Below, one piece after another: positions 2,937 through 39,735 of a stretch of DNA of 39,735 bases. Every line of letters begins with the position of its first letter. Within the stretch, counting starts at the first letter, position 1. A program made the position numbers and the translations under genes. Source of the stretch: Rhodospirillaceae bacterium (lineage in GTDB: Bacteria; Pseudomonadota; Alphaproteobacteria; SHVZ01); contig JAEULB010000111.1 of NCBI GenBank assembly GCA_016792585.1, positions 1 through 39,735 of the forward strand, given 5' to 3'. The notes under the pieces were generated by a model. That model searched no databases, was not told where the DNA came from, and worked only from the letters and a program-made list of their open reading frames with translations.

Positions 2937-3562
2937 CACGGCGCCCAGGCGGAGAAAGCCTCGATCAGCCGGGACCCGTTGGCGTGGCTTCGCTCGGGAT
3001 GAAACTGCGTGGCGAAGACCGTGTCGAAACGGATCGCGGCGACGATATCCAGGCCGTGCGAGGCCGTAGCCGCAACGCGATCGGCCTGAGGGGTCCGCAA
3101 CGTATAGGAATGGCAGAAGTAGAAGCTGCGTTCCCCGCGCGGCTTGCCGAAAAGCGTCTCGCTGTCCGGCACGACCTCGACCGGGTTCCAGCCCATGTGC
3201 GGACACCTCCGGTCAAAACCGTCGAGCGAGGAGAGCGACACGACGTCGCCTTCGATCCAGCCGAGCCCGCGATGCTCTCCGAACTCGAACAGCCGCTCGG
3301 CGAGCATATGCATGCCGAGGCAGACGCCCAGCAAAGGCCGTCCTTTCCGTCGAACCGACTCTTCGAGCGCCTGGTCGAGCGAGCGCTCGCGCAGACGCGA
3401 CAAGGCTTCGAACGCCGCGCCGACGCCCGGAAGGATCAGGCGTTCGGCCGATGCGACCTGTTCTGGTGTCGTGGCGACCTCAACCTCGTGCCCGGCCTGA
3501 CGGACGGCATTGCATACCGATGTCAGATTGTTCACGCCGCAGTCAATCACCGTCAGACGCAT
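2936..3562 (-). CDS. hisH: HisH-like glutamine amidotransferase (glutaminase)
   Basis: A class I glutaminase of 208 residues that releases ammonia from glutamine for delivery through HisF. The catalytic triad is visible: Cys81 in LLGVCLGMHML, and His188 and Glu190 in FATQFHPERS. The N-terminus MRLTVIDCGVNNL aligns with the usual HisH beginning. I therefore place the start at the ATG at 3562, 5 bases after the pseA stop, with AAGGG about 12 bases upstream. A TTG three codons earlier (3571) would overlap the pseA stop and is an alternative. Position between pseA and the degenerate hisF indicates a role in sugar acetamidino formation, not histidine synthesis. Confidence 0.9.
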   Translation of the reverse strand: MRLTVIDCGVNNLTSVCNAVRQAGHEVEVATTPEQVASAERLILPGVGAAFEALSRLRERSLDQALEESVRRKGRPLLGVCLGMHMLAERLFEFGEHRGLGWIEGDVVSLSSLDGFDRRCPHMGWNPVEVVPDSETLFGKPRGERSFYFCHSYTLRTPQADRVAATASHGLDIVAAIRFDTVFATQFHPERSHANGSRLIEAFSAWAP

Positions 3563-5782: not shown

Positions 5783-6062
5783 ATGCCTGATCTGATCAAG
5801 GGTTGCGGCATTCATATGGCGTGGACAGGGTGCCGGGTCCATGCCTTTTCGCAAGCCGCCCGCCGCCCGGGCCTGCCCGAACGCCGGACCAGATACCCGG
5901 TCATGGCGCCGAACCGTTCCAGGAACCCTCGAAAGCGGGGGCTTGCATCAGAAGGCCCGCCTTGAAGGCGTGCCGACCGGCATGGGTCGCCGCCTGGATG
6001 GCGGTGACGAGTCGCTCGCGACCGGCGCGACAAGCAGCATATACGCGGCACCGGCGGCCGCG
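5783..6062 (-). other. Non-coding spacer upstream of pseB
   Basis: About 280 bases between the stop of the oxygenase gene and the pseB start. I see no convincing gene in either strand; the open frames here are short, arginine-rich and lack family features. The short imperfect palindrome CGCCTTGAAGGCG near 5960 could form a small hairpin. It is the only sizeable gap in the minus-strand run, so a promoter for pseB-pseA-hisH-hisF may lie here, but no clear -35/-10 pair is visible. Confidence 0.35.
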
Positions 6063-24138: not shown

Positions 24139-24142
24139 CGTT

Positions 24143-25930
24143 CTAGCTCGGGGGTTGGCCGCACCACTCGCGCCACATCTCGCGGTAGGCCCCCTCGAGC
24201 TCCCTAGCCATCCGCGCACCGTCGCAGATCGGCGAGGCCAGAAGCCTGGTGCGCAGGGTTCCCCGCAGCTCTTTGCGGCGCTCGACATCGGCGGCGAGCT
24301 CGATCGCAATCCGAACATAGTCGCGATCCGATGCGGCAGCGAGGTCATCCAAGCCGAGCGTCGCGAGGAACATGTAGCCATAACGTCCGAGCACGCGATC
24401 TCCGATCTGGGACACGACCGGAACGCCCATCAAGAGCGCCTCGAGTGTCGTCGTCGCACCGCCGTACGGGACCGTATCCAGCGCGACATCGATCTGGTCG
24501 TAGACCGCGAGGTGATCCTGGTAGGTCGACCGCCAGGGTTCGAACTCGATCCGGTTGCCGGCGATCCCGCGATCGGCGAAGCGAGCGCGGATCCTTTCGA
24601 CGACTGCCGATCCGGCCTGGACCTCCGCCTTCAGCAGCAGTCGCGACCGGGGAGCCGCAGCAAGTATCCTCGCCCACAGATCCAGCGTCCGCTCCGACAG
24701 TTTGGCGAGTTGATTCAGGCTGCCAAAGGTCACCGGTCCGTTCCGTCGCTGAGAAAGCGGCGGCGGCGGCAGCGGCAGCAGCGGTTCGCATACATAGCCG
24801 CAACTGACGCGAACGACCTTCTCGTCGAAGCAGCGGTCGGCGTCCGGCGGGACAAGAAGGTTGTCGGCCACCGCATATCCGACGGCGCGCATTCCAAACG
24901 ACCCCATCGCCATCCAATTGACCTGGACCGGAGCGGGGCGCCGGCCCAATGCGAGAAGCCGACTGCCCGCGGCAAAACCGAGAGAGTCGACAAGAACGTC
25001 GATCCGATCTTCCCGGATCAATTGCGCCAATCCGGCATCATCCAGCGATCCCGTTACCCGGAAGGTAGACGCATGAGACCGAAAAAGATCGGTGACATGA
25101 TCCTCGTCCTGCTCGAGGACATCCGAATAGCAGAAGACCTCGACCTCGCGCCGATCATGGTTTCGAAAGACCGGGAGGAGGACCATTGCGGTCGTGTGCA
25201 TGCGGAAGGCGTTGCCTGAAACGTATCCAATCCGAAGCCGTCTATCCGGCTCGCGTGACCTTTCGACGTATCCGAGCTGGTTTTCCGACGTGACGTAGCG
25301 CCTTTCGAACTCGCGCGCCAATCGCAAGGTCGTTTCGGGCGGCTCCTCGTCCAGAAGGAGGGAGATCGACACCCGTCGCGCCAGAAGACCCGGGCCGCCG
25401 TCGCCTATCGGCGACGCGTCAAGCAGCTGTCGAGCGCGCCGCGCCTCTCCGCACCGGAGGTAGATTGCCGTAAGGTTATCCACAGCGTCGGGGAAGCCGC
25501 GCTCCAAGGCGATCGCGCGCTGGAGCTCAGCGATCGCCGCATCGAAGTCCCCGGCCAAGCGAGAGGCGACGCCCTTCCCATTCCATGTCCCCGCGCTCGA
25601 CGGTGCCAGGGCCACGCTTCTCCGCAGCGCCAAGTTCGCTGCCTTCACGAGCCCCTTCTTGGCGAGGATGCCGCCGACGCTTCCGAGCAGCTCCGGGCTT
25701 CCGGATGGAAGCGACGCCGCCCTCAGTAGAACGCACGACGCTGCTTCACTGGCGCCCCCGTCGATCGCCAATGCCAGAAGCTGCCACGCCTCTATCGTGC
25801 CAGGCGCTTTTGCGAGGACGCGGCGATACCCCTGTGCCGCAATAGCAACTTCGCCTAGACGATGATGGGTCAGCGCTTCGTTCAACTCGGCGGCGGTCGC
25901 CGCATGTTCGGTGCTTTCGGGCGCCGTCAT
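24143..25930 (-). CDS. Divergent TPR-GT41 glycosyltransferase
   Basis: A 595-residue protein, TPR repeats to about residue 160 and a GT41 domain from about 230. Lys410 in FGSLNQLAKL, equivalent to the donor-binding lysine of OGT, is kept. Other sites differ from the paralogues: the LSxDFxxHP motif becomes VSGNAFRMHTT (His245, with one extra residue), the AGHTxxNR segment is SLGFAAGSR, and the DPFPFNG loop is DTVPYGG. A proline-rich stretch PLLPLPPPPL at 384-393 is unique to this copy. It is the first gene of the transferase operon and starts 54 bases from the iteron-like palindrome upstream of repA. It may use a different sugar or acceptor from its neighbours. Confidence 0.85.
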   Translation of the reverse strand: MTAPESTEHAATAAELNEALTHHRLGEVAIAAQGYRRVLAKAPGTIEAWQLLALAIDGGASEAASCVLLRAASLPSGSPELLGSVGGILAKKGLVKAANLALRRSVALAPSSAGTWNGKGVASRLAGDFDAAIAELQRAIALERGFPDAVDNLTAIYLRCGEARRARQLLDASPIGDGGPGLLARRVSISLLLDEEPPETTLRLAREFERRYVTSENQLGYVERSREPDRRLRIGYVSGNAFRMHTTAMVLLPVFRNHDRREVEVFCYSDVLEQDEDHVTDLFRSHASTFRVTGSLDDAGLAQLIREDRIDVLVDSLGFAAGSRLLALGRRPAPVQVNWMAMGSFGMRAVGYAVADNLLVPPDADRCFDEKVVRVSCGYVCEPLLPLPPPPLSQRRNGPVTFGSLNQLAKLSERTLDLWARILAAAPRSRLLLKAEVQAGSAVVERIRARFADRGIAGNRIEFEPWRSTYQDHLAVYDQIDVALDTVPYGGATTTLEALLMGVPVVSQIGDRVLGRYGYMFLATLGLDDLAAASDRDYVRIAIELAADVERRKELRGTLRTRLLASPICDGARMARELEGAYREMWREWCGQPPS

Positions 25931-26376: not shown

Positions 26377-27354
26377 ATGGCGGAAATCCACGAACAACTG
26401 ATGCTGCGCGGCTTTGCTGCGATGCTGCGCGAGGCGTCCTCCCGGAACGCTCCGCGCTCCGACATTCGCCGTATCGAGGCCGCACACGAGATCATGTCCT
26501 CCCTCGAGGACGAGATCTCCTATCTCCATTCGGGATTCTGCCTCGCCGGCCTGCCCCACCAGAAGCCCGAGAACGACGAGGCCAGGTGGCTCCGCAGCAA
26601 CGGACGCTTCCATCTGATCATCACGCCCGGCGCCATCATGAGCGAAGGCGTCATGCGCACCGTCGGCGTCCCCTACGGTGCCAAGGCCAGGCTCATCCTG
26701 GTCTACCTGATGAGCGAGGGGGTGAAGTCGCGCAACGTCTCGCTCGGCAAGTCGATGACCGCCTGGATACGCAGCCTGGGGATTTCGGTCACCGGCGGCC
26801 CTCGAGGCAGCATCCGGGCGATCCGCGAGCAGGCACTGCGGATTTCCCGGTGTTCCTTCACCTTCCAGTGGGACGACCTGGAGGCGCAGGAATCCATCAT
26901 CCACGACCAGCATCTCGTCGAAGGCGGGCTTCACCTCTGGGCGGCCGAGGAAGGCGGTTTCTTCCCCAAGGCGATCACCTTGACGCCTCAGTTCTACGAC
27001 CATCTCCGCAATCATGCGGTTCCGCTCGACCCGCGAGCGATCGCGTACCTCAAGGCGTCTCCCCTCTGCCTTGACCTTTATGTCTGGCTGGCGCACCGCC
27101 TGCCCAGGCTGAACCGCCCGATACAGCTGCCCTGGGCCGTCCTGGCGCAGCAGTTCGGATCCGCCTACCGGACGACCGCCGCCTTCGCCTATCGGACCAA
27201 GGCCGCCCTCGCCGACGTCCTTGCGGTCTATGACGGCAGCAAGGTCGAGGTCGGTGCCAAGGGCCTCACGATCTACCCGTCGCCGCCGGCAGTCCGCAGC
27301 ACCAAGATGTTCGTCAGCAAGGCGCTGCCCGAGACACGCACTGCATCGTCCTGA
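26377..27354 (+). CDS. repA: Plasmid replication initiator RepA (PF04796 family)
   Basis: A 325-residue protein of the plasmid-encoded RepA family found on alphaproteobacterial replicons. The core block is clear: VGVPYGAKARLILVYLMSEG, then SLGKSMTAWIRSLGISVTGG and REQALRISRCSFTFQW, the order typical of the family (a winged-helix-type DNA-binding region). A second conserved block is ITLTPQFYDHLRNHAVPLDPRAIAYLKAS. The protein should bind the iterons in the adjacent region and start replication. The ATG has no strong ribosome binding site. It is the only replication, partition or transfer gene in the window; both neighbours are glycan genes, so the origin sits inside the glycosylation island. 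Confidence 0.9.
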   Translation: MAEIHEQLMLRGFAAMLREASSRNAPRSDIRRIEAAHEIMSSLEDEISYLHSGFCLAGLPHQKPENDEARWLRSNGRFHLIITPGAIMSEGVMRTVGVPYGAKARLILVYLMSEGVKSRNVSLGKSMTAWIRSLGISVTGGPRGSIRAIREQALRISRCSFTFQWDDLEAQESIIHDQHLVEGGLHLWAAEEGGFFPKAITLTPQFYDHLRNHAVPLDPRAIAYLKASPLCLDLYVWLAHRLPRLNRPIQLPWAVLAQQFGSAYRTTAAFAYRTKAALADVLAVYDGSKVEVGAKGLTIYPSPPAVRSTKMFVSKALPETRTASS

Positions 27355-27385: not shown

Positions 27386-28258
27386 ATGCCATTGCCGAAG
27401 ATCCTGCTGCTGGGAGCGACCGGACTGGTCGGACGCGCCCTCCTTCGCGTCGCGGGCGCGCGAGGCATCGCGATCGTCGGAGCCGCACGAACCGGTGCTG
27501 ACATCATGGTCGACGTCACGAGAGATGAAGATTTGGCAGCGGTGATCGAACGCAGCGGCTGCGGCTTGGTCGTCAACGCGACCATGTCAGGCGGGATAGA
27601 GGCATGCCATCGCGACCCAGGCGGAACCTATCTCGTCGATGGTCGTGCCGTGCGCATTCTTACGGAACTCTGCCGGCGTCGCGGCATGCCTTTCGTGCAT
27701 CTCAGCACCGATCACTTCTTCACCGGAGACGGTGCGGCACGTCACGACGAGTCGGCCCCGGTGGTGCTCGTGAACGACTATGCCGCCGGCAAATACGCGG
27801 GCGAGCGCTTTGCGCTGACCTACCCTCGATCCCTCGTCATCCGAACGAACGTCGCCGGTCATCGCGGCTGGGCCGGGCGGCCGACCTTCGCCGAGTGGGC
27901 GGTTGCGGCGCTCGCGGGAAATCAGGAGATCACCGGGTTCTCCGACTACCATTGTTCGACCATCGACAGTGACAGCCTGGCTCACGCGATCCTCGACCTG
28001 ACTTCCGGCGGGGCAAGCGGCCTTCTCAACGTCGGCGCAACCGAGGTCGCAAGCAAATACGCCTTTCTCGATGCGCTGGCTCGACGCCTCGGTCTCCCGG
28101 ACAGGTGCCTGGTAGAGGGATCCGTCGCCGGTCTGGTGCCGAGGCGGGCCGAGAGTCTGGGACTCGATGTCTCGAAGGCCGAGGGCCTTCTCGGCAGACG
28201 CTTGCCGACGCTGGAAGAAGTCGTGGATCACCTTGCGCGAAGCATCGCCGGCGCCTAG
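27386..28258 (+). CDS. RmlD-like NAD(P)-dependent sugar-nucleotide reductase
   Basis: A 290-residue short-chain dehydrogenase of the RmlD group (dTDP-4-keto-sugar reductase type). The dinucleotide motif GATGLVG is near residue 12, LSTDHFF corresponds to the family's STDYVF, and Tyr/Lys of the YxxxK pair are in NDYAAGKYAGE. The later segment RTNVAGHRGWAGRPTFAEWAV matches the substrate-loop region. The start ATG follows an AGGGG ribosome binding site, 31 bases after the repA stop. No other dTDP-rhamnose genes (rmlA, B, C) are present, so the product need not be rhamnose; another deoxysugar is equally possible. Confidence 0.85.
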   Translation: MPLPKILLLGATGLVGRALLRVAGARGIAIVGAARTGADIMVDVTRDEDLAAVIERSGCGLVVNATMSGGIEACHRDPGGTYLVDGRAVRILTELCRRRGMPFVHLSTDHFFTGDGAARHDESAPVVLVNDYAAGKYAGERFALTYPRSLVIRTNVAGHRGWAGRPTFAEWAVAALAGNQEITGFSDYHCSTIDSDSLAHAILDLTSGGASGLLNVGATEVASKYAFLDALARRLGLPDRCLVEGSVAGLVPRRAESLGLDVSKAEGLLGRRLPTLEEVVDHLARSIAGA

Positions 28259-28288
28259 GTCGGCGATCCACATGATTGATCGGCGGAT

Positions 28289-28365: not shown

Positions 28366-30066
28366 ATGAACATCCTGGGTATCGGCTTCCTGTCGGAAGC
28401 CTCAGTCGCGGTTGTCCGGGACGGACGTCTGGTCGTAGCGATCAGCGAAGAGCGTCTGAACCGCGTGAAGCTGTGGTACGGAATTCCCAGGCTGGCGATC
28501 GATCGCGCCCTGGCCCTGGCCGGGCTGACGCTGGATCAGATCGATGTCGTGGCGACCCATGGTGCGGCACCCCCCGAGCCGGATGGCGAGCCTTACAAGG
28601 CCAAGGAAGCCGCGATCCTTGCCTCGGACCTTCCCCAAGACAGGAAAGAGGACCTCATCCAGCAGCTGCGCGGACGGCTCGCGCATGAGCGGAAAGTCCT
28701 GGCCGAGCGTACGCCGGCTTACCTTCGCGAGATCGAGTCGCTTGGCCGGCCGATCATGCTCTTCGGACATCACGAGTGCCACGCGGCGACAGCTCATTAC
28801 GGTAGCGGCTGGAAGGAAAGCGACGTCCTGACCATCGACGGCTGGGGCGAGGATGGTTCCTCGTCGTTCTGGCACGGCAACGGCGTCGAGATGACCAGGC
28901 GCGGCAAGTCCCATACCTTCGACTCGGTCGGGTACTTCTACGGCAGTATCACCAAGGCGCTGGGATTCATCCCGCATCGCCACGAAGGCAAGGTGCTGGG
29001 CCTTGCCGCCTTCTGCGCAGAGCCGAAGTCTTACGGCACCATCTCCGAGATGATCGACTATGCGCCGGGTGAGTATCGGTTCGTCGGCCGTCCCGATCGC
29101 GGCTACTACGTTCCCCGCATGGAGAACCTGCCGCTGAAGCGTTTCGTCGAGGGATTCACGCGCGAGGACGTCGCAGCGGCAGCTCAGCGCCGGCTCGAGG
29201 AAGTGGTGACGTCGCTGATCCGCGATCTCGGCGGCAGCGACCGCCGCATGGCACTGGCGGGCGGCGTCTTCGCCAATGTGAAGCTCAATCAGCGCGTCGC
29301 CGAATGCTCGAACGTGGCGGAAGTGTTCGTCTATCCGAACATGGGCGACGGCGGACTCTCGGTCGGAGCCGCCTGGCTAGCGCATGTGCGCAAGACCGGA
29401 ACGTTGCCGAAGCCCCTGGATACAATGCTCCTCGGTCCGGCGCCGACGGAACAGGAGATCGGGTCGCTGCTGGCGACAAGCGGCCTCAAATATCGGAAGA
29501 GCGCTAACATCGACGACGAGGTTGCCGGTCTGCTCGCGGACGGCCAGATCGTCGCCCGATGCTCAGGCGCGATGGAATTCGGTCCCCGGGCCTTGGGAAA
29601 TCGCAGCATTCTTTACCGCGCGACCGAGCCGGACGTGAACAACTGGCTCAACAAGCGCCTGCGACGCTCGGAGTTCATGCCGTTCGCGCCGTCGGTCCTG
29701 GCCGAACGCGCTGACGAACTGTTCGAGGGCATCGACGCGGGAACGTCGCCGGCGCGTTTCATGGCGATCACGTTCGACTGCACTGCGAAGATGCGGCGGG
29801 AAGCGCCGGCGGCGGTGCATGTCGACGGAACGGCCAGGCCGCAACTGGTGTCGCCACAGGACTACCCGGCTTTTCATCGCATCCTGACCGGCTACCGGGC
29901 CCGGACCGGCCTGTCCGCCGTGATCAACACGAGCTTCAACATGCACGAGGAGCCGATCGTCTGCACCGCGGATGACGCGATGCGGGCCTTCAAGGACGGT
30001 GGCCTGCCCTATCTGGTCCTTGGCGACTTCCTGGTCGAGGGCGAGAAGGTCGACTTGCGCGGCTGA
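28366..30066 (+). CDS. Carbamoyltransferase (NodU/CmcH family)
   Basis: A 566-residue O-carbamoyltransferase that would transfer a carbamoyl group from carbamoyl phosphate to a hydroxyl, here probably of a sugar. The Kae1-like domain has the metal ligands His135 and His139 in FGHHECHAATA and Asp158 in TIDGWGEDG. The C-terminal half has CSGAMEFGPRALGNRSIL and VINTSFNMHEEPI, both highly characteristic. Near the N-terminus the family's usual G-x-x-HDAS segment reads GFLSEAS, so the His-Asp pair is replaced by Ser-Glu. The gene follows the RmlD-like gene in the same direction. Its last 58 bases overlap the convergent acyltransferase gene. Confidence 0.9.
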   Translation: MNILGIGFLSEASVAVVRDGRLVVAISEERLNRVKLWYGIPRLAIDRALALAGLTLDQIDVVATHGAAPPEPDGEPYKAKEAAILASDLPQDRKEDLIQQLRGRLAHERKVLAERTPAYLREIESLGRPIMLFGHHECHAATAHYGSGWKESDVLTIDGWGEDGSSSFWHGNGVEMTRRGKSHTFDSVGYFYGSITKALGFIPHRHEGKVLGLAAFCAEPKSYGTISEMIDYAPGEYRFVGRPDRGYYVPRMENLPLKRFVEGFTREDVAAAAQRRLEEVVTSLIRDLGGSDRRMALAGGVFANVKLNQRVAECSNVAEVFVYPNMGDGGLSVGAAWLAHVRKTGTLPKPLDTMLLGPAPTEQEIGSLLATSGLKYRKSANIDDEVAGLLADGQIVARCSGAMEFGPRALGNRSILYRATEPDVNNWLNKRLRRSEFMPFAPSVLAERADELFEGIDAGTSPARFMAITFDCTAKMRREAPAAVHVDGTARPQLVSPQDYPAFHRILTGYRARTGLSAVINTSFNMHEEPIVCTADDAMRAFKDGGLPYLVLGDFLVEGEKVDLRG

Positions 30067-30746
30067 CCCGCGCGCCCGTCGAGCCGCTCGAGAGAGGCGG
30101 GGACGTCGTCGAAAGGCAGGCCGCTAAGGTCGGTCACATCCCGCTTCCACCAGGCCGACCGCAGAAGCCGCGCGATCGTCTTCTTGTCGAAGCGATAGCG
30201 AAGGATCTTCGCCGGTGCTCCGGCGACGATCGCATAGGGCGGAACGTCCTTCGTGACGATCGCCCCGGCGCCGATCACCGCTCCGTCGCCGATCTTCACG
30301 TCCGGCATGACGACCACGTTGTTTCCGATCCAGACGTCGTTTCCGACCGTCACCTTGCCTCGGATCGCGAATCCGGCTTCGACCCGCCCGAAGTCCTTCA
30401 TGGCGTCGACGAAGGCCCACGTCCTCGAATGGAACTGGAAAAGGTGCGTGCTGAGCCAGCCGAGCGGATGCCCGCCGGCGTTGATAAGGACGTTGCTGCC
30501 GATCGAGCAGTAGGCGCCGAGCTCGGCATCATGGCAGTTGAAGAAGTCCTCAGCCGCAGTGAAGGCACCGATCGTGCAGCGACGGACCAGGCCGAAGCGG
30601 CCGAACTGCGCAGGCCCCGCCAGATGGACGGCCTCGATCAAAGCGCCGGCCCGGAGGCGGACGAGCTTCTTGTAGTGCTTGTCGGAAAGACCACGGTTCT
30701 CTGCGCGAGCGACGAAGAACGGACGGAATGTCGGGCGGGAAGTCAT
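30009..30746 (-). CDS. Hexapeptide-repeat acyltransferase (CatB/LbH type)
   Basis: A 245-residue acetyltransferase with a left-handed beta-helix. The hexapeptide pattern is visible in GKVTVGNDVWIGNNVVVMPDVKIGDGAVIGAGAIVTKDV, followed by PPYAIVAGAPAKILRYRF, the standard ending of the xenobiotic/CatB-like group. An earlier stretch has the likely catalytic His in INAGGHPLGWLSTH. The start ATG overlaps the stop of the Maf gene as ATGA, so they are co-translated. It probably O- or N-acetylates a sugar on the modified protein or its precursor. The last 20 residues are low-complexity, basic and overlap the carbamoyltransferase gene tail-to-tail by 58 bases. Confidence 0.88.
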   Translation of the reverse strand: MTSRPTFRPFFVARAENRGLSDKHYKKLVRLRAGALIEAVHLAGPAQFGRFGLVRRCTIGAFTAAEDFFNCHDAELGAYCSIGSNVLINAGGHPLGWLSTHLFQFHSRTWAFVDAMKDFGRVEAGFAIRGKVTVGNDVWIGNNVVVMPDVKIGDGAVIGAGAIVTKDVPPYAIVAGAPAKILRYRFDKKTIARLLRSAWWKRDVTDLSGLPFDDVPASLERLDGRAGQPRKSTFSPSTRKSPRTR

Positions 30747-32737
30747 GCGACGGCCAAGCTTTCGATGTCCTGCCTCATCCTGTCCACCGCTTGATGAAAG
30801 GCCTGGTCGATCGCCGACAGAAGACGATCGAGTTCGCCGCCGTCGGCGGCCATAAGACTGCGTTGGACCGCCACCTGAAAGAAGCTGAACAAGGTGCCGC
30901 CGAGCAGCTCGACCACCCCGGGCGCCTGCGCCAGCAGCGAGCCGAGAAGAAGGTGATTGGTTCGTTGCGAGGCAACCAGGAGTTCGGCCCGGGTCCGGGG
31001 CGCGGGCGTCATGATGGCATGAAGGATCGTCGAGATTTCCCGAAGTTGCCGCAGGGTGAGGTCGAACGCCGCTCGATATCCGGGGATGAGCGTCGGCGGC
31101 TGCTCGAACCGCGAACGCATCATCGCCAAGGCGCCGGTGCGGGTGCCCCGATAGATGCGGCGGTCCACCTGGTCGACCGTGAGATTGAGGGCGCCCGCGA
31201 TAGCCGCGCCGTCGCTGCACTGGAGAATGGCTCCGGCGTCCTTCGAGGCGGAGATCAGGGTCTCGAGCGAGCGGATGCCGTAGAGAAAGAGGTCGTTGGT
31301 CGTGATCGTCTCGCCGGTTACGGCGGTGATCGGGTGGTAGCCGGTCTTGTCGTCGAAGCCCAACATGGGCATTTCGAGGCCGATATGCTTGAAGTCGGTC
31401 CGTACTTCGCCGGTATCGTCATCGATGTAGACGGTGTTGTCGGCGTGGTGCCGCTTCACGTCCCGGAATCCGAGATCCATGCCCACGAGGGTCACGCGGG
31501 AGAATCCGAGGGCGAGGCCGAGGGCCGCGCCGGAGTTGCCGACAGTCGGGTCGCTGTAGTTCAGGGCCTCAGCCGCGTGGGCGAGCATGGTCGTGCAGGT
31601 GACGCCGATCCGCGGATAGAGAAACGCCTCCGAGAAGAGATCCAGCATCTCGGGATATACGCCGGCCGATCCGATGCAGGCGATCGAGCGCAGGACATTC
31701 GGGTCGTCGAGGGACCGGAAGAACGCCATCGCCTCGGGTGCGGTTTCGAGTTCCAGGTGGAAATCTGGAAGGATGCCGCCGCGCAGGACCGGCCGGATGG
31801 CCGAGCCGCAGGTCATGACGACGCACCGTTCGCGGATCTCCCGGATCAGCTTGATGCTGTCGTTGAGAGAGGGTCCGCTGCCGACGACGACGAGGTCGGT
31901 ATCCGGCACGACCGGCCAGCGCCGGGCTATCCAGCCCGTTGCCTTGGCGAGGTTCTGATGGGTGTGGAGGATCTGGCGCCGCTGGTCCTTGTAGTAGCCC
32001 CGTGGCGTCAGGATGATCGGCATTGCGCGCTGGATGGCTGCCGCCGCCTCCGACATGTCGGGCGTGTCGTAGTGAAGCAGGGCTCGCGCGCCGTGGATGT
32101 GGCTCTGGGCCACCTGGCGAAGCAGGCCCACGAGCGCGTCGCCCCCCTGCTTCCCTCCGAGATTGTTGACGACGCCGAAGGTCCGGCCCGGCCGGAGCAG
32201 GCGGTCGCCGAGGCTGGCCCAGTCAAAGGTCGCCAGGGAAATGGAGAAAAGCGTCTCGGACGGCTCGTAGATGAACAGGTGGTGGATGTCGACGAGCTCC
32301 AGGAGGCGTTGGACGTGGTAGCCGAGACCGATGCCGAAGACGACCACGGTGGGGCCGTAGCCATCGGGAAAGGCATAGGGCGCAGGCTGGGCGACGAGTG
32401 GACGGTCGCTCGCGGCGTCGATCGTCTGTCCGGCTGCGTAGAGGATCTCGTCGTCCGGCGGAATGATCTGGATCGGCGCCTTCAGGCGCGGAGACGTCCC
32501 GAGGAAGTCGTCCACCTGGCGCTGGGCCGCGACCCGCGCCGGTTCGGGATAGAGCAGGCCTTCGGCAGTCCGGATGTTGACCGGCTGTCCGGTCGCAGGA
32601 TCGCGGACGATCAGCTCCTCGATGCCGGGGGCCGGCTCGGCGGAGATGACATAGTCAGGATTCAGGCGCCTGAAGAACTCGATGTTCCGGCGATGGATCC
32701 GGACCGGATCGTACAGATCGGGAATGGCTCCCGTCAT
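30743..32737 (-). CDS. Maf-type motility accessory glycosyltransferase (DUF115)
   Basis: A 664-residue protein of the Maf family, cytosolic enzymes that attach nonulosonic acids to flagellin before export in Campylobacter, Helicobacter, Aeromonas and others. The central MAF/DUF115 domain is clear: VVVGSGPSLNDSIKLIREI, then FHLELETAPEAM, TCTTMLAHAAEAL, NSGAALGLALGF and LVGMDLGFRD. The N-terminal part, with VVFGIGLGYHVQRLLE, is the usual Maf N-domain. It is followed by the acyltransferase with ATGA overlap and preceded by a methyltransferase in the same direction. Its presence with pseG and pseI strongly supports flagellin as the target of pseudaminic acid. Confidence 0.92.
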   Translation of the reverse strand: MTGAIPDLYDPVRIHRRNIEFFRRLNPDYVISAEPAPGIEELIVRDPATGQPVNIRTAEGLLYPEPARVAAQRQVDDFLGTSPRLKAPIQIIPPDDEILYAAGQTIDAASDRPLVAQPAPYAFPDGYGPTVVVFGIGLGYHVQRLLELVDIHHLFIYEPSETLFSISLATFDWASLGDRLLRPGRTFGVVNNLGGKQGGDALVGLLRQVAQSHIHGARALLHYDTPDMSEAAAAIQRAMPIILTPRGYYKDQRRQILHTHQNLAKATGWIARRWPVVPDTDLVVVGSGPSLNDSIKLIREIRERCVVMTCGSAIRPVLRGGILPDFHLELETAPEAMAFFRSLDDPNVLRSIACIGSAGVYPEMLDLFSEAFLYPRIGVTCTTMLAHAAEALNYSDPTVGNSGAALGLALGFSRVTLVGMDLGFRDVKRHHADNTVYIDDDTGEVRTDFKHIGLEMPMLGFDDKTGYHPITAVTGETITTNDLFLYGIRSLETLISASKDAGAILQCSDGAAIAGALNLTVDQVDRRIYRGTRTGALAMMRSRFEQPPTLIPGYRAAFDLTLRQLREISTILHAIMTPAPRTRAELLVASQRTNHLLLGSLLAQAPGVVELLGGTLFSFFQVAVQRSLMAADGGELDRLLSAIDQAFHQAVDRMRQDIESLAVA

Positions 32738-32825: not shown

Positions 32826-33428
32826 TCACTCGGGGAAATGCTGCATCACGAGCTCGCGAACCGCCCCCTCCGGCAGGGGCGATACCGTCGCAAGCGCCCA
32901 GATGTCATAGAACGGAGCGGCGCGGCGCGCCATCGCGACCCGGGTGAAGCCGGCCTCATGCAGCGCCTGCGTCAGAACGCGCTGCGTGAATCCCGTGCGA
33001 TGCGCCATGTGGAGGTTTCCGCCAGCGAGCGCCGGACGATAGCCATAGAGCATATCGAGCGGGGAGATCGGTCCGGCGGGCGACAGATAGGCCTCTTCCG
33101 TCAGCTTGTCTTCGGCGACGAGCGCGGCAATCGACTGGAGATCGGGGCAGGTCACGACGACGAAGCCGTCTGGCGCCAGCACTCGCACGAACTCCGACAG
33201 CGCCTTCGGCACCTCGTGCGGGTAGAGATGCTCGATGTTGTGACTGGAGAAAATCGCATCGACGCTTCCGTCGCGGACCTCGGCCATGTCGGTCATCGTG
33301 CCGACGATATCGGGCGTCACGCCTTCATCGATGTCGAGGCGGAGCTCCGACCAGCCCGGGTCCGCGAAGCCGCGGGTCGGACGGCCGTTTCCTTTCGGTC
33401 CGCATCCGACATGGAGGAAGGTCTTCAT
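32826..33428 (-). CDS. Class I SAM-dependent methyltransferase
   Basis: A 200-residue methyltransferase. The SAM-binding motif I is HVGCGPKGNG, the acidic strand is RLDIDEG, and FSSHNIEHLYPHEVPKAL followed by LAPDGFVVVTCPDL are motifs II and III of the Methyltransf_11/12 type. The start ATG at 33428 gives MKTFLHVGCG; the frame continues upstream as a basic, low-complexity reading that is not a protein. It is the first gene of the set with Maf and the acyltransferase, and diverges from pseG. The likely substrate is a hydroxyl or amine of the nonulosonic acid or of the glycan on flagellin, but this is only context. Confidence 0.85.
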   Translation of the reverse strand: MKTFLHVGCGPKGNGRPTRGFADPGWSELRLDIDEGVTPDIVGTMTDMAEVRDGSVDAIFSSHNIEHLYPHEVPKALSEFVRVLAPDGFVVVTCPDLQSIAALVAEDKLTEEAYLSPAGPISPLDMLYGYRPALAGGNLHMAHRTGFTQRVLTQALHEAGFTRVAMARRAAPFYDIWALATVSPLPEGAVRELVMQHFPE

Positions 33429-33562
33429 GCGATCACTGGTCCGTTCGGATCGTCGCTGTATGCTCGGGACTGACAAGAGGTCGAAGGCCGGCAGCCGGTG
33501 AAGATCGATAACCCAATCGGCCGGGAGCGAGAAGCATTCATCGCCGGCAGGATCTAGGCGCG
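33429..33562. promoter_or_regulatory. Divergent promoter region between the methyltransferase and pseG genes
   Basis: A 134-base gap between divergent genes, so it must hold promoters for the methyltransferase-Maf-acyltransferase set and for the pseG-pseI-SpsF set. I do not see a clear -35/-10 pair or a sigma-54 (GG-N10-GC) site. No hairpins of note. Confidence 0.45.
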
Positions 33563-34615
33563 ATGGCGGGGAAGCTCGCGATCTTCCGTTTCGACGCCGG
33601 CCCGTCGATCGGCCTCGGACATGCGGTTCGCTGCGGCGCACTGGCGGATGTTCTGGCCGCGGCCGGCTGGCGGATCGGGCTGGCCCTGGGGCCGGAAAGC
33701 CTCGCGGCTGCACCGAGACTGTCGGAAAGCGGATACGACATCGAGACGCTCGACGGCGCCGACGAAACCCGCGCGCTGATCAATCGGTGGCCGGGGGGCT
33801 GCGACCTCCTGGTGGTCGACCACTACGGCCGAAGTGCCGCCTTCGAAAGAGAGGCCAGACCCTGGGCCCGACTGGTTCTCGCCCTTGACGACTCGCCCAA
33901 CCGCCAGCACGACTGCGATCTCCTTCTCGATCCGGCGGCACGACCGGAGGAGCGCACCTACGAACCCTTGTCGGCGCGCGGGACGAGGCTTCTGCTCGGT
34001 CCCCAATACGCGCTGCTGCGTCGGTCCTTCATCGAGCGCCGGGAGGCATCGCTGGCACGTCACCGGACTGCCGGGAAGGTTCGCCGGATGCTCGTTGGTC
34101 TCGGCGCCACGGACCCTGCCGACCTGACGTCGCGCGTGATCGAAAGCGTGGCCGCCGCCGTGCCGGGGGCGGCGATCGACATCCTGCTCGGCAAGGCAGC
34201 GCCGCATCTCGATCGAGTCCGAAGCCGGATAGCCGGCCGGCCCGGAATGCGCCTGCTTCTTGATCCGCCTGACGTCGCCGACATCATGGCCGCGGCCGAT
34301 CTCGCCGTGGGTGCCGCGGGGTCGACCAGTTTCGAGCGCGCCTGTCTCGGCCTTCCGGGCGTCTCCCTCGTCGTCGCGAGCAACCAGGAGAGCATCGCCG
34401 GCCTTCTGCACGAGCGGGGCGCGGCTTGCGTGATTGACGGCCGGTCGGGCGATCCGGCGCCGGAGATCGGCCGTGCCCTTCGCGAGCTTGCGGGCGATGA
34501 CGCACGTCGCCGGCGGATGAGCGAAGCCGGCGCGTCGATCGCCGACGGTCAGGGCGCCGAACGGGTGCGCGTGGCGGTCGAGGCGGCCATCATCGCCCGC
34601 CATCCGGAACCCTGA
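33563..34615 (+). CDS. pseG: UDP-2,4-diacetamido-2,4,6-trideoxy-altrose hydrolase, PseG
   Basis: A 350-residue enzyme that releases the 6-deoxy-AltdiNAc sugar from UDP, the step before condensation by PseI. It has the GT28-like GT-B fold. The family N-terminus is clear: FRFDAGPSIGLGHAVRCGALADVL, with the catalytic His at residue 20 (His17 in the Campylobacter enzyme). Later blocks are LLVVDHYG, DDSPNRQHDCDLLLDP, LLGPQYALLRRSF and GAAGSTSFERACLGLPGVSL. The family hallmark ASNQESIAGLLHERG lies close to the C-terminus. It is the first gene of a plus-strand set with pseI and the SpsF-type fusion. Confidence 0.93.
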   Translation: MAGKLAIFRFDAGPSIGLGHAVRCGALADVLAAAGWRIGLALGPESLAAAPRLSESGYDIETLDGADETRALINRWPGGCDLLVVDHYGRSAAFEREARPWARLVLALDDSPNRQHDCDLLLDPAARPEERTYEPLSARGTRLLLGPQYALLRRSFIERREASLARHRTAGKVRRMLVGLGATDPADLTSRVIESVAAAVPGAAIDILLGKAAPHLDRVRSRIAGRPGMRLLLDPPDVADIMAAADLAVGAAGSTSFERACLGLPGVSLVVASNQESIAGLLHERGAACVIDGRSGDPAPEIGRALRELAGDDARRRRMSEAGASIADGQGAERVRVAVEAAIIARHPEP

Positions 34616-34686: not shown

Positions 34687-35736
34687 ATGCCACAGGCCTT
34701 GACCATTGCCGGCCGCAAGATCGGCCAGGGTCAGCCGCCTTTCGTCATTGCCGAACTCTCCGGCAATCACAATGGCGACATCGGACGGGCGAAGCAGTTG
34801 ATGCGCGCCGCCAAGGATGCGGGGGCCGACGCGGTCAAGCTGCAGACCTACACGGCCGACACGATCACCATCAGCCATGACGGGCCCGAGTTCCGGATCA
34901 CCGGCGGCCTCTGGCACAACCGATCCCTGCACGATCTCTACCGCGAGGCGCATACGCCCTGGGAGTGGCATCCGGAGCTGTTCCAGCTCGGCCGGGACCT
35001 CGGCATCCCCGTCTTCAGCTCGCCTTTCGACGAGACGGCGGTGGATTTCCTCGAGGAACTCGGCACGCCGGCCTACAAGGTCGCATCCTTCGAGCTGATC
35101 GATCTGCCCCTGATCCGCAAGATGGCGTCGACGGGCAAGCCGATGATCATGTCGACTGGCCTCGGAAGCCTAGGCGAGATCTCCGAGGCGATCGAGGCGG
35201 CCCGCGGCGCCGGCTGCAAGGAGCTGGCGGTTCTCCATTGCGTCAGCGCGTATCCGAGCCCGGTCGAGGAAGCGAACGTGCGGACGATGACGCACCTCGC
35301 CGAGGCCTTCGATGTCGTCGTCGGGCTTTCCGATCACAGCCCGGGCTCGGCAGTGCCTGCCGCAGCGGTCGCACTCGGCGCGTCGGTCGTCGAGAAGCAC
35401 ATGACGCTGGCGCGCGCCGATGGCGGGCCGGACTCGGCTTTCTCGCTCGAGCCCGACGAGTTTCGCGAGATGGCGGAAACCTGCCGGCTGGTCCAGAAGG
35501 CGGTAGGGCGAGTCAGCTACGAGACGACCGAAAGCGAGAAGGGAAACCTGATCTTCCGTCGGTCCTTGTACGTCGTCGCCGACATCGCCGCCGGCGAGGA
35601 GTTCACCGCGTCGAACGTTCGCTCCATACGTCCGGGCAAGGGTCTGCCGCCGAAGCATCTGCCCCAGGTGCTGGGCCGGGCGGCGCGCCGCGCCATCAAG
35701 CGCGGCACGGCATTGTCTTGGACGGATGTCGACTGA
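34687..35736 (+). CDS. pseI: Pseudaminic acid synthase, PseI
   Basis: A 349-residue enzyme that condenses the PseG product with phosphoenolpyruvate to give pseudaminic acid. It has the NeuB-type TIM barrel followed by the SAF antifreeze-like domain. The PseI-specific pattern is clear: IAELSGNHNGDIGRAKQL, KLQTYTADTITIS, YREAHTPWEWHPELF, FSSPFDETAVDFLEEL, then EKHMTLARADGGPDSAFSLEPDEF, and the SAF domain from RRSLYVVADIAAGEEF to RGTALSW. These features separate it from legionaminic or sialic acid synthases. The start is ATG at 34687, about 12 bases after GGAG; an ATG 7 bases earlier is in another frame. It precedes the SpsF-type fusion by 45 bases. Confidence 0.95.
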   Translation: MPQALTIAGRKIGQGQPPFVIAELSGNHNGDIGRAKQLMRAAKDAGADAVKLQTYTADTITISHDGPEFRITGGLWHNRSLHDLYREAHTPWEWHPELFQLGRDLGIPVFSSPFDETAVDFLEELGTPAYKVASFELIDLPLIRKMASTGKPMIMSTGLGSLGEISEAIEAARGAGCKELAVLHCVSAYPSPVEEANVRTMTHLAEAFDVVVGLSDHSPGSAVPAAAVALGASVVEKHMTLARADGGPDSAFSLEPDEFREMAETCRLVQKAVGRVSYETTESEKGNLIFRRSLYVVADIAAGEEFTASNVRSIRPGKGLPPKHLPQVLGRAARRAIKRGTALSWTDVD

Positions 35737-35781: not shown

Positions 35782-37671
35782 ATGACCGCCGTCGCCATCA
35801 TCCAGGCCCGCATGGGCTCGTCCAGGCTGCCGGGGAAGGTTCTCATGGACCTTTCCGGCCCCTGCTCGCTCGAGCGAACCGCGCGGGCCGCTGCTGCGGC
35901 GCGCGGGGTCGATCGCGTCGCCATCGCGACATCCCGGGCAGCCGGCGACGACGCGATCGCGGAGTGGTGCGCCAGCCGGGGTATCGCCTGCCATCGTGGT
36001 CCCGAAGATGACGTGCTGGCGCGCTATGTCGTGGCTGCCCGCGCCGAGAACGCGGGGATCGTCCTTCGCATCACCGCCGACTGCCCCTTTCTCGACCCCG
36101 AGGTCGTGTCGTCGGTGCTGTTGCTGTTGAAGCTCTCGAAAGCGGACTACGCGGCGAACACGGATCCGCCCAGCTGGCCCGACGGCCTGGATTGCGAAGC
36201 GATGCTCGCGAGCGCGCTGTTCGACGCTGACCGGGAGGCCGAGCGCCCGAGTGACCGCGAGCATGTCACTCCGTTCATCCGCCACAATCGCGGCCGGTTC
36301 CGGGTCGAGAACCTGATCGGCCCGTGGACCGGGCTCGCCGACGAGCGCTGGACCCTCGACACGCCCGCCGATCTCGCCTTCCTGCGCGCCGTGGCCGCGC
36401 ATTTGCCCGTCGACCGTCCAGCGGTCCTGTCGGAGGTCCTCGAGGTTCTGGAGCGGCATCCGGAGCTTCGCCGGCTCAACGCCGGTCAGATCCACAATGA
36501 AGGCTTGGCCCTGTCGATCCGCAAGGAGATCGGCCGTCCAGTCTCGACGAAGGCCGGGCGCAGCGCAGCGCTTCGGACCCGCTTCCGTTCGCTGGCGAGC
36601 GATGAGGGTCCGGTTCTTACCCATGGCGACGGCGCTCTCGTCTGGGACGCGGACGGGAACGAGTATGTCGACCTGACCGGAGGCGACCCGCCGGCCTTGC
36701 TCGGGCACCGGGCGCCGGCTGTGGACCGCGCCATCCGCCGCCAGCTCATCGAAGGCGTGTCCGTCGGGTCGGCCAACAGGCTGTTCGGCGAGCTCGCCGA
36801 GGAGCTGGTCGCGATCCTGCCTGCGATCGAGACGATCCGTTTCGGCAGATCCCGCAGCGAGGTGCTGGCCGACGCTGCCGGGACGGCGCGGGCGACGACC
36901 GGCCGGCGGCAGGTGCTTTGGGTAGGGCCTGCCGGCCTGGGCATCCCGGGCGCGACGACCGTCGACGGCGCGGCCGCTGAGGCAGCGTTGCAGGGAGACG
37001 ATGTTGCCGCCGTCATGATCGACGGCCTCGCTCTTTACTCGGCGCCCGGCGATCCGGCCGGCCTTGCGGCCGCGGCCCGCCGAGCCGGTGCGATCGTCGT
37101 TCTCGACGAGAGCATGACCTGGCCGCGTACCGGGTTTGGAGGCGCACACGGTGCTCTCGGTGTCGGATGCGACTTGATCTGTCTTGCCGGCGCGCTCGGC
37201 GGCGGGTTGTCGCTTGCCGCTCTCGGCGGAGCCCGGCGATTGATGGCCGCCGTGCATGAGCATCGATCCGGCGGCGGTGACGGCGCAGCGGCAGCAGCCG
37301 GCTTGGCGTCCTTGCAGGTGGCGCGTGTGAACGATGTCCCGGCTCGCCTCGCCCAGGCCGGCACCCGACTCGAGGCCGAGCTGGCGAAGCTCGGCGGGTG
37401 GGAATCGGCGTCCAAGTTCATTCGCTTTGCCGGCCCCCCGGCATGGCGCACCTTGGTCACGTCGGATCATCCGGCGATGAACAAAGTCGAGCTGGCTGCG
37501 ATCATCGTCACCGGCCTCAGGGAGCATGGCGTGCATCTGCGCGCGGCACATGGCGTGACGGCGGCCCACGGCGAGAACGAAATCGGCCGCGTGCTCTGGG
37601 CCTACGAGCAGGTTCTGACCCGGATCGAGCAGCTCGGTGCGGGGGGGTCGTCGAAGGCCGGACGGGGATGA
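35782..37671 (+). CDS. SpsF-type cytidylyltransferase fused to a degenerate class III aminotransferase domain
   Basis: A 629-residue two-domain protein. Residues 1-235 form an SpsF-like nucleotidyltransferase, with IQARMGSSRLPGKVL at 7-21, the metal site RITADCPFLDP and YPDGLD/REHVTP-type segments. It replaces PseF, activating pseudaminic acid with CTP. Residues 240-629 align with glutamate-1-semialdehyde aminotransferase-like PLP enzymes, from DGALVWDADGNEYVDLTGG to the end. Asp442 (DESMT), the PLP-nitrogen ligand, is kept. The PLP lysine of the expected CLGKxxGGG motif is Gly470 in LICLAGALGGG, the SGTEA motif is SRSEVL, and the YHG segment is missing. The second domain therefore looks catalytically dead as a transaminase. 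Its stop overlaps the start of the next gene (ATGA). Confidence 0.88.
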   Translation: MTAVAIIQARMGSSRLPGKVLMDLSGPCSLERTARAAAAARGVDRVAIATSRAAGDDAIAEWCASRGIACHRGPEDDVLARYVVAARAENAGIVLRITADCPFLDPEVVSSVLLLLKLSKADYAANTDPPSWPDGLDCEAMLASALFDADREAERPSDREHVTPFIRHNRGRFRVENLIGPWTGLADERWTLDTPADLAFLRAVAAHLPVDRPAVLSEVLEVLERHPELRRLNAGQIHNEGLALSIRKEIGRPVSTKAGRSAALRTRFRSLASDEGPVLTHGDGALVWDADGNEYVDLTGGDPPALLGHRAPAVDRAIRRQLIEGVSVGSANRLFGELAEELVAILPAIETIRFGRSRSEVLADAAGTARATTGRRQVLWVGPAGLGIPGATTVDGAAAEAALQGDDVAAVMIDGLALYSAPGDPAGLAAAARRAGAIVVLDESMTWPRTGFGGAHGALGVGCDLICLAGALGGGLSLAALGGARRLMAAVHEHRSGGGDGAAAAAGLASLQVARVNDVPARLAQAGTRLEAELAKLGGWESASKFIRFAGPPAWRTLVTSDHPAMNKVELAAIIVTGLREHGVHLRAAHGVTAAHGENEIGRVLWAYEQVLTRIEQLGAGGSSKAGRG

Positions 37672-39735
37672 CGGCGCCGATATCGTCGGCGGACATGTCG
37701 CCGCTGGAAGCAGCGCTGGATCTGCACAGGTCGGGCCGCCTCGTCGATGCCGTCGTGGCTTATCGGCGGATCCTCGCCTTCCAGCCCGGCGCCGTCGAGC
37801 CGCTCGATCTGCTAGGCGTCGCGTCGCACCAGCTCGGTCGCAGTGCCCACGCGATCGCATTGCTGCAGCGGGCCGTCGCCTGCGCCAAATCTGCGGCATC
37901 TGCGCATCTCAACCTGGCGCTGGTTCAGCAGGCACAGCCGGGGGCGGCAGCCGGCCGGAGCTTTCGGCGCGCCCTGGCCCTGGGACCCCAGGTAGCGAAA
38001 GCCCTGCTGGGCCTCGGCACCTCGGCCGCCGTACCGACGCAAGCCCTTTCCTTCTACCGACGGGCGGCGGCAGCCGATCCCGGATACATGGAGGCGCATT
38101 ACAACGCTGCTGATGGCCTTATCGCATCGGGAGACCGACGACGCGGCACGCGGGCGTTGCGTCGGACCCTGGCATTGGCGCCAGCCCTTCAGCGAGGCCA
38201 CGACGCGCTTGCGATGACCACGCTTCCGTCGGACCCCGAGGCGGCGAGCCGGCGCATCGATCGGGCAATGGCGTCGGCGCCTCCATCGCCCGGCGTCCTT
38301 TCGAACGCGGCGCTCGTCCGAAAGGAGCTCGGCGCGTTCGAGCAGGCCTGCCGGCTGTTGAGGCGGTCCATCTGCCGGGATCCGTCCGCACCCTCCGCGC
38401 TCGGCAATCTCGGCAACGCACTGAAGGACGTCGGCCGAGCCGGAGCGGCCCAGCCGTATCTTGCGCGGTGCGTCGCCATCGCGCCGCTGACGATCCATTG
38501 GAACAACCTTCTTCTCTGCAAGTCGTACGACCCGGACACGACGCGGGAGGAGTTCTTCGGTACCGTCCGCCGATGGGCGCGCCGGCTTCCGCTCATCGCC
38601 GCCAGGTCGACGCCGCCGCGTGGCCGCGGCGATCGCATTTCGATCGCGTACCTGTCGGCGGACTTTCGCAGCCATCCGCTGGCGCGGAACATCGCACCTG
38701 TCTTCGATCGGCACGATCGAACGTCCTTCCGTATCGTGGGCTACACCGACGCCCAGCCTGCCGATGCGATGACGGTGCGCCTTCAGAGGCGATCCGACGA
38801 CTGGGTGCGGATCGACGGCATGTCCGATGCTGAGGTGGCCACGCGGATCCGGACGGACGGGATCGACGTCCTGGTCATTCTGGCAGGCCGGATCGGAGCC
38901 AACCGTCTCGAGGTCGCTTGTCACCGTGCGGCACCGGTACAGGCGACGATGTATGACCTCGACGCGAGCGGTCTGCCAGAAATCGACTGCTGGCTGGCGG
39001 ATGAGTGGTTGGTGCGGCCGGATGATCCCTATGCCGACCGGGTGGCACTGCTTCCGTGCTATGCGGTTCATGAGGCTCCGGAGGAGGTCCCGGAAGAAAT
39101 TTTGCCTGCCGAGATCTTGTCTGGAGACGTCACCTTCGTCTCGTTCAACAATACCGCGAAGCAGGGACCGAGCATGTATCGGCTCTGGGCCGAGATCCTG
39201 CAGCGGGTTCCTGGTTCCCGGTTGCTTCTGGGATTCCTCAATCGCTACGGGTCTTCCTCGCTCCGAGCCGAGGTTCTGGGAGCGATGGCGGCGGCCGGCG
39301 TGAATCCGAGCCGCATCGAGTTCGATACCGTGGCGCGCAGCGGGCGCGATCATTTCATGCGCCTCGGCCGTGCCGACATTGCGCTTGATCCGGCACCGTT
39401 CAACGGCTCGACGGCGACCTTCGAGGCGCTCTGGATGGGCCTGCCGGTGGTGAGCCTAACGGGGCCGCTGGCCGCCGGGCGCATGGGAGCGTCGATCTTG
39501 CCGCATGTCGGGCTCGGCCATCTGGTAACGGAAAGTCCGGATACCTATGTCGCCGCCGCCGCAGCGCTTGCCGCCGACAGGGCCGGTCGCGCGGAGCTTC
39601 GTCGCGATCTCAGGCGGCGTCTCGTGGCATCCGCGCTGATGGATGCGGCGGGATACACGCGAGCGCTTGAAGGGCACTATCGACGCCTGGTGGACCAGGC
39701 CGAGGCGGCGCGCCCGAGTACGGCGCGCGCTTTAA
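37668..39735 (+). CDS. TPR-GT41 glycosyltransferase, 3' end cut by the window edge (probable GT2 fusion)
   Basis: An open frame of 689 codons with no stop before the window end. Residues 1 to about 275 are TPR repeats; the linker holds NNLLLCKSYDPD, and a GT41 domain follows. His336 in LSADFRSHPL, Lys498 in SFNNTAKQG and the donor loop ALDPAPFNGSTATFEALWMG at 572-591 match the OGT/SPINDLY family. The start ATG overlaps the stop of the SpsF fusion. The last complete codon is Leu (TTA) and base 39735 is A. With bases 1-2 (CC) this makes ACC (Thr), and the frame continues exactly as the GT2 domain at 3-719. The joined product would be 928 residues. If the edge is not a circle, the gene simply continues beyond the window. 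Confidence 0.9.
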   Translation, partial: MTAPISSADMSPLEAALDLHRSGRLVDAVVAYRRILAFQPGAVEPLDLLGVASHQLGRSAHAIALLQRAVACAKSAASAHLNLALVQQAQPGAAAGRSFRRALALGPQVAKALLGLGTSAAVPTQALSFYRRAAAADPGYMEAHYNAADGLIASGDRRRGTRALRRTLALAPALQRGHDALAMTTLPSDPEAASRRIDRAMASAPPSPGVLSNAALVRKELGAFEQACRLLRRSICRDPSAPSALGNLGNALKDVGRAGAAQPYLARCVAIAPLTIHWNNLLLCKSYDPDTTREEFFGTVRRWARRLPLIAARSTPPRGRGDRISIAYLSADFRSHPLARNIAPVFDRHDRTSFRIVGYTDAQPADAMTVRLQRRSDDWVRIDGMSDAEVATRIRTDGIDVLVILAGRIGANRLEVACHRAAPVQATMYDLDASGLPEIDCWLADEWLVRPDDPYADRVALLPCYAVHEAPEEVPEEILPAEILSGDVTFVSFNNTAKQGPSMYRLWAEILQRVPGSRLLLGFLNRYGSSSLRAEVLGAMAAAGVNPSRIEFDTVARSGRDHFMRLGRADIALDPAPFNGSTATFEALWMGLPVVSLTGPLAAGRMGASILPHVGLGHLVTESPDTYVAAAAALAADRAGRAELRRDLRRRLVASALMDAAGYTRALEGHYRRLVDQAEAARPSTARAL

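Follow-up and report, generated by a model that had tools for sequence, protein, structure and literature searches.

Two glycosyltransferase genes at the edges of a draft contig

The window analyzed here is a 39,735-base stretch of DNA from a Rhodospirillaceae bacterium that carries a glycosyltransferase gene at each of its edges and, between them, genes for a predicted sugar pathway and a plasmid-type replication protein (Table 1). It comprises the entire contig C58 (bases 1-39735), one of 236 contigs in a draft genome (G000; 5,085,089 bases; 88.8% complete), so that bases 39735 and 1 are contig edges and the junction between them is absent from the sequence. The gene at the right edge encodes a tetratricopeptide repeat (TPR) array followed by a transferase domain of family GT41, and the gene at the left edge encodes a family 2 glycosyltransferase (GT2). 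A preliminary description of this DNA had joined the two frames across the contig ends and proposed a single TPR-GT41-GT2 protein on what was probably a complete circular plasmid. Our analysis indicates that the two halves are most likely encoded by separate genes, and that the apparent fusion probably arose because two edges of an unfinished assembly happen to meet in frame when joined.

The right-edge protein has the domain order of SPINDLY and OGT (CAZy family GT41), with TPR repeats followed by a GT41 domain, which has the GT-B fold. Ten TPR models match its N-terminal region, six of them above their cut-offs, with the best stretches lying within residues 21-273, and the GT41 domain scores 122.3 bits against PF13844 (cut-off 25). 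Residues 19-674 align with the SPINDLY structure 7y4i, placing Lys498 opposite SPINDLY Lys665, which we take to be the catalytic lysine. The protein differs from SPINDLY and OGT in being bacterial, and its sugar donor and protein target are likely to be different as well. The ATG of its gene overlaps the TGA of the preceding gene, which encodes a cytidylyltransferase/aminotransferase-like protein, in the sequence ATGA (bases 37668-37671); this overlap suggests that the two genes are translationally coupled.

The facts on which the proposed fusion was built hold up. The frame starting at 37668 remains open to the right edge, spanning 689 codons and a single further base. At the left edge the GT2 frame is likewise open, running from base 3 to a stop codon at 719. 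Joining the ends gives 2068 + 719 = 2787 bases, or 929 codons including the stop, and the joined reading, ...TARAL-T-VVTP..., keeps the frame and supplies a plausible GT2 beginning. The Pfam assignments likewise agree, with TPR and Glyco_transf_41 in the right piece and Glycos_transf_2 (PF00535) in the left. As the preliminary description noted, a kept frame has a chance of about one in three of arising by accident; we reach the same figure given that both edges fall in long plus-strand genes. As a control, we closed random pieces of the window of at least 10 kb onto themselves (20,000 trials per strand, with the strands summed). In ~70% of closures an open frame crossed the join and extended 100 codons or more to either side; frames reaching 200 codons on each side occurred in 23%, with 400 and 200 codons in 7%, and with 600 and 200 codons in 2%. 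The actual join has an open frame of 818 and 238 codons on its two sides, and is thus uncommonly long by this measure, a result in favor of the fusion.

Relatives of each half are separate proteins

Database relatives of the two halves point the other way. The closest relative of the right-edge protein (P0003) is 96% identical at 99% coverage and ends after 683 residues, at ...LVDQAEAARR; the second-best match (P0004), 64% identical and likewise 683 residues long, ends as P0003 does, at the C-terminus of the GT41 domain. Residue 683 of the window protein is encoded at 39714-39716, so the stop codon of P0003 would fall at 39717-39719. The window extends 16 bases past this expected stop, and its last 19 bases are unmatched by P0003.

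For the left-edge GT2, the best match (P0123) is a protein of 246 residues that is 99% identical, with 3 of 238 residues differing. P0123 starts MSADMRVSVVTP; its start is also given as MSADMRVSVVTPATGH. Eight residues, MSADMRVS, thus precede VVTP in P0123 and include a methionine of its own. In the window, the first full codon is that of the first V of VVTP, so that all eight are either absent or cut by the edge. Immediately ahead of VVTP, P0123 has a serine where the direct join would give a threonine. Measured against P0123, the left edge of the contig lies ~22 bases inside the GT2 gene. Based on these alignments, a direct join would require the loss of the stop codon in the first gene together with the loss of the start codon and first residues of the second.

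The wider families give a similar picture. We found 217 homologues of the GT41 protein and listed 120 of them. BLAST aligned 119 of those listed, and in 117 the alignment extends to query residue 640 or beyond. None of these 117 measurable homologues carries a GT2 tail. Their C-terminal tails have a median length of 10 residues, the second longest is 41 residues, and the longest, at 289 residues the only tail of 100 or more, contains a methyltransferase domain. Among 74 homologues of the GT2, 57 have 4-12 residues ahead of the query's first residue, one has 49, 12 have 124-149, and four start inside the query. The 12 with 124-149 additional N-terminal residues (P0127-P0132, P0134-P0136, P0140, P0142, and P0144) all match TPR models. 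These proteins do show relatives of the edge GT2 fused behind TPR domains, and in that respect speak for the fusion, but their TPR-GT2 architecture is unlike the one claimed. We also searched for long proteins that contain the GT2 part, covering lengths of 0.55-1.75 times 928 residues (~511-1624 residues) and scoring 2708 candidates. Five long GT2 proteins were kept; Pfam finds GT2 in all five, methyltransferases in two, and GT41 in none, so the TPR-GT41-GT2 proteins of ~930 residues that the preliminary description suggested looking for did not turn up. In the window, too, the three domains do not share one contiguous gene but lie at opposite ends of the contig.

Several points weigh against reading the edges as two separate genes. 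The stop of P0003 and the start of P0123 are known from predicted proteins and not from adjacent DNA. The P0123 cluster may include this organism's own gene, since its source mark ("-") denotes a protein encoded by the window. Start calls vary, as another GT2 relative (P0124, 83% identical) starts 18 residues inside the window GT2. The last 19 bases of the window contain no in-frame stop, which would allow a short read-through, and comparably long frames arise in just ~2% of random closures, as described above. Even so, a real fusion protein of 928 residues appears very improbable to us: its kept frame and plausible GT2 beginning have to be set against close relatives (96% and 99%) of the two halves that are separate proteins, against the lack of any homologue of such architecture among those measured, and against a join that lies between contig edges. 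Because the relatives are separate and no measured homologue has this architecture, the TPR-GT41-GT2 fusion is most likely not real.

Across the seven genomes available for the family, which are also all those available for the order, no close homologue of the GT2 was found beyond the window, and a single weak match was ~30% identical. Among the genome contigs searched for relatives of the edge GT2, 23 were found, at most 46% identical. In a viral collection, 48 contigs (L092-L139) encode relatives of the GT2 with up to 47% identity, and no relative of the edge GT41 protein was found there.

The ends of the contig and the replicon it belongs to

The contig encodes a RepA_C protein, which is 51% identical to a RepA of a Roseomonas plasmid and 46-47% identical to RepA proteins on Azospirillum replicons of 1.75-2.05 Mb. 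Matches to it occur in 919 of 72,556 plasmid records, all below 60% identity, and the 20 best listed records range from 60,772 to 2,048,375 bp; given this range, RepA says nothing about the size of the replicon. Within the 21 genomes searched (the organism's own and 20 others), RepA_C was found in two, its own and a second genome of the same genus (G006). Judged from this protein, C58 forms all or part of a replicon whose RepA is of the plasmid type. Near repA, we found two-copy families of repeats alone, none of them convincing as iterons. None of the six places in the genome with a ParA-type (AAA_31) gene lies on C58; other partition types were not searched.

We examined the contig ends for signs of closure. 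No suffix-prefix overlap was found at lengths of 8-299 bases and >75% identity, and words common to the first 1000 and last 1000 bases reach no more than 11 bases (direct) and 12 bases (inverted). Compared with the organism's own genome, the left 900 bases match themselves alone among the 40 candidates scored of 225. For the right 836 bases, the matches other than to themselves are all to paralogous GT41 stretches (40 of 174 candidates scored). These paralogous matches stop at query base 687 or before, short of the last 149 bases. A query made of the final 60 and initial 50 bases, run at E-values up to 10 with 40 of 109 candidates scored, gave the self-match and short partial matches, all but one of which fall in the right-end part; for the left end, no match to a different contig appeared. 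Among the candidates scored, then, nothing in the assembly joins or extends the ends of C58.

A comparison with a related genome bears on how the two ends relate to one another. Homologues of 10 of 26 window genes, listed by hand with doubtful frames left out, lie within 2.6-16.1 kb of a 35,773-bp contig of that genome (G004:C33). They include homologues of PseB (51% identical), the amidotransferase, the HisF-like protein, the GNAT protein, the carbamoyltransferase, PseG, PseI, the cytidylyltransferase, and the aldo/keto reductase. Gene order is different there, and the cytidylyltransferase and aminotransferase parts of the fused window gene at 35782-37671 match two separate places. No match to the TPR-GT41 or GT2 gene of the window edges was found on that contig at 1e-8. 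In the window, the 10 matching genes occupy both ends of C58 and not its middle, and they span 24 genes on the open contig but 14 once it is closed, an arc that small occurring in 0.3% of random gene orders. An eleventh gene, encoding the GT9 protein, matches G004:C33 outside the cluster, at 21-28 kb; with it included, the arc is 17 genes and the proportion 2.7%. This test addresses clustering and not circularity.

Since both ends lie near the expected stop or start of their genes, and since joining them brings together pathway genes whose homologues in a relative cluster on a single contig, the ends of C58 may be neighbors with a small missing stretch between them. If so, C58 would be a complete circular plasmid of ~40 kb, interrupted by a gap of a few dozen bases in which the stop of the GT41 gene and the start of the GT2 gene would lie, and the two edge genes would be adjacent, unfused members of an operon. 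We regard this as a tentative possibility. The presence of repA, the closeness of each end (~25 bases or less) to where its gene should stop or start, as one short gap would give, and the reduced gene arc all fit it, but it must be reconciled with the lack of terminal overlap, the lack of an AAA_31 ParA-type gene on C58, and the sizes of the 20 best listed RepA records, none of which is near 40 kb. A contig of 121,020 bp, the longest listed for P0003, may also speak against it. We weighed whether the sizes of the contigs listed for P0003, P0004, P0123 (up to 7,756 bp), and P0124 bear on adjacency, but the counts are ambiguous and just the 121,020-bp contig was used. Finally, a contig of similar size from another species of the genus (G006:C8, 40,726 bp) likewise shows no terminal overlap.

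We lean toward C58 being a fragment of some larger replicon with repA, a megaplasmid or chromid, its ends having different true neighbors. The 121,020-bp contig and the lack of end overlap support this, as do the RepA matches on large Azospirillum replicons, and several further contigs rich in GT41 in this genome (C155, C195, C49, C88, and C205) could belong to the same replicon. Less easily explained are the location of both ends at a gene boundary and the split pathway, which fit neighboring ends. Of the complete circular plasmid first proposed, then, the plasmid-type repA has stood, overlapping ends have not been found, and the full circle is undecided.

The contig from the other species of the genus carries a second repA (32024-33031), whose product is 75% identical to the RepA of C58, together with homologues of TPR-GT41 and TPR-GT9 proteins, and gene order is not conserved between the two contigs. 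As it stands G006:C8 is not closed, its ends lying inside two TPR frames that point outward in opposite directions.

A predicted pseudaminic-acid-type sugar island

Between its two edges, C58 carries genes predicted to serve a pseudaminic-acid-type pathway (Table 1). In this genome PseB, PseG, and PseI score above their model cut-offs, a PseF-like domain is present, and a PseH-like protein scores below its cut-off. The gene for the cytidylyltransferase fused to a class-III aminotransferase-like domain comes after pseG and pseI, directly ahead of the right-edge TPR-GT41 gene.

Table 1 Predicted features of contig C58, in order of position.
Feature	Position	Strand	Basis
Stand-alone GT2, likely lacking its first residues alone	3..719	+	PF00535; alignment with P0123
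Aldo/keto reductase, convergent with the GT2 gene	716..1636	-	PF00248
GNAT acetyltransferase, possible PseH role	1623..2165	-	PF13302; TIGR03585 PseH below cut-off (35.2 vs 93.1)
HisF/WbuZ-like, possible amidotransferase partner	2169..3206	-	PF00977; best model TIGR03572 below cut-off (212.4 vs 299.7)
WbuX-type N-acetyl sugar amidotransferase	3568..4755	-	TIGR03573, 333.8 bits vs cut-off 203.2
PseB, UDP-GlcNAc 4,6-dehydratase (inverting)	4775..5854	-	TIGR03589, 476.2 bits vs cut-off 407.75
TPR-GT41 protein	6667..8586	-	PF13844
TPR-GT41 protein	20873..22930	-	PF13844
TPR-GT9 protein	22771..24381	-	PF01075, TPR
TPR-GT41 protein	24143..25930	-	PF13844
RepA_C replication protein	26377..27354	+	PF04796, 118.6 bits vs cut-off 26
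Small conserved gene beside carbamoyltransferase	27587..28273	-	No Pfam; 33% identity to part of G004:C33 next to that contig's carbamoyltransferase
Carbamoyltransferase	28366..30066	+	PF16861, PF02543
Maf-like flagellin glycosyltransferase (predicted)	30743..32737	-	PF20157 Maf_flag10_N, PF01973 MptE-like above cut-off
Methyltransferase	32826..33713	-	PF08241
PseG, UDP-sugar hydrolase	33563..34615	+	TIGR03590, 204.5 bits vs cut-off 153.55
PseI, pseudaminic acid synthase	34687..35736	+	TIGR03586, 493.7 bits vs cut-off 340.25
Cytidylyltransferase fused to class-III aminotransferase-like domain (PseF-like domain)	35782..37671	+	PF02348, PF00202
TPR-GT41 protein (OGT/SPINDLY-like), complete or nearly so	37668..39735	+	Pfam TPR, PF13844; alignment with P0003 and P0004; solved relatives SPINDLY 7y4i, 5djs

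Among the other glycosyltransferase genes, that for the heptosyltransferase-like TPR-GT9 protein sits between two TPR-GT41 genes and has homologues on the repA contig of the other species of the genus. We also compared bases 30000-39735 with plasmid records; a single record, an Azospirillum plasmid, had similar DNA, covering 7% of the query in the pseI region.

A proposed route to flagellin glycosylation

Judged from these genes, the region is predicted to make sugars and attach them to flagella. In the mechanism we propose, PseB, PseG, PseI, and the PseF-like domain would make a CMP-activated sugar of the pseudaminic acid type, which the WbuX/WbuZ-like pair would perhaps modify with an acetamidino group. 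The right-edge TPR-GT41 protein would bind flagellin in the cytoplasm via its TPR domain and place the sugar on it, with the Maf-like protein as a second candidate transferase. The GT2 would work independently of it, with either the glycan or a different acceptor as its substrate.

The closest known parallel is FlmG of Caulobacter crescentus, a TPR-containing flagellin O-glycosyltransferase. FlmG is reported to bind flagellins through a TPR domain at its N-terminus, to carry a transferase of the GT-B type at its C-terminus, and to modify flagellin in pseudaminic-acid-making strains alone (PMC7591256). The right-edge protein resembles FlmG, so described, in its N-terminal TPR array and C-terminal transferase domain, and the two genomes are alike in having pseudaminic-acid-type genes and several flagellin genes (PMC7591256). 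Flagellin_N is found at nine places in the genome studied here. The right-edge gene differs from the FlmG gene in that it overlaps the end of a sugar operon on a repA contig, and in being one of at least 30 GT41 places in its genome. Caulobacter vibrioides, one of our control genomes, matches PF13844. Maf flagellin glycosyltransferases offer a second comparison through the Maf-like gene of the same island. They belong to another protein family, and a Pfam scan of the Maf-like protein gives no match to GT41.

A further link to flagellin comes from another contig of the same genome (C195; 11,177 bp), where four GT41 matches (1859-9262) lie between a pair of flagellin matches (844-1257 and 10665-11078), all of them plus-strand. 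One further TPR match lies on the minus strand of this contig, at 9880-10410. The comparison with FlmG, the position of the TPR-GT41 gene at the end of a pse-type run, and these flagellin and GT41 neighbors on C195 argue that the role of the right-edge protein is likely cytoplasmic O-glycosylation of flagellin with a pseudaminic-acid-type sugar.

Some observations fit this mechanism less well. No PseC turned up among the frames we scanned. The GNAT protein falls short of the PseH cut-off and the HisF-like protein of the WbuZ cut-off, and the Maf-like protein is far below the cut-off of the NCBIfam PseD model (28 vs 670). The aminotransferase-like domain seems to lack the pyridoxal phosphate (PLP) lysine, whereas its counterpart on G004:C33 has a lysine there; the position compared is that of the PLP lysine of glutamate-1-semialdehyde aminomutase. 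The likeness to FlmG lies in domain order and gene context, and flagellin is inferred as the target from gene neighborhood alone. With these points weighed, we have good confidence, applying jointly to all its parts, in an explanation that combines two separate genes at the contig edges, a pseudaminic-acid-type island, a TPR-GT41 protein that would act in the manner of FlmG, and a replicon with a plasmid-type RepA.

It is conceivable, though in our view unlikely, that C58 represents a small circular repA plasmid of ~40 kb dedicated to flagellin decoration, with the pse-type pathway, the Maf-like transferase, and several TPR-GT41 proteins encoded together, in a bacterial family in which each genome has dozens of enzymes of this kind. 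If that were true, the sugar coat of the flagellum could be swapped between strains as a single unit.

Expansion of TPR-GT41 genes and its implications

The right-edge gene belongs to a large set. PF13844 matches 31-59 stretches per genome in all seven genomes of the family (G000-G006), compared with 0-6 in 14 other genomes of the class that were searched; of 14 control genomes, two have a match. These stretches are not gene counts, as a single gene may yield two of them and as scoring covered just 41 candidates per genome in the six genomes of the genus. With the right-edge protein as the query, the first 30 places in its own genome all reach the GT41 domain, and four of them lie in the window. 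A literature search turned up no account of such a TPR-GT41 expansion, which is not proof that none exists.

These findings remove a probable false enzyme from consideration: the chain said to add one sugar and then extend it is most likely two ordinary proteins encoded at opposite contig edges. This leaves a predicted glycosylation island accompanied by a plasmid-type repA in a little-known lineage, the best listed matches of its RepA being those of Roseomonas and Azospirillum. This lineage has unusually many TPR-GT41 genes, in part adjoining flagellin genes, and could suit the study of how TPR domains choose their targets.

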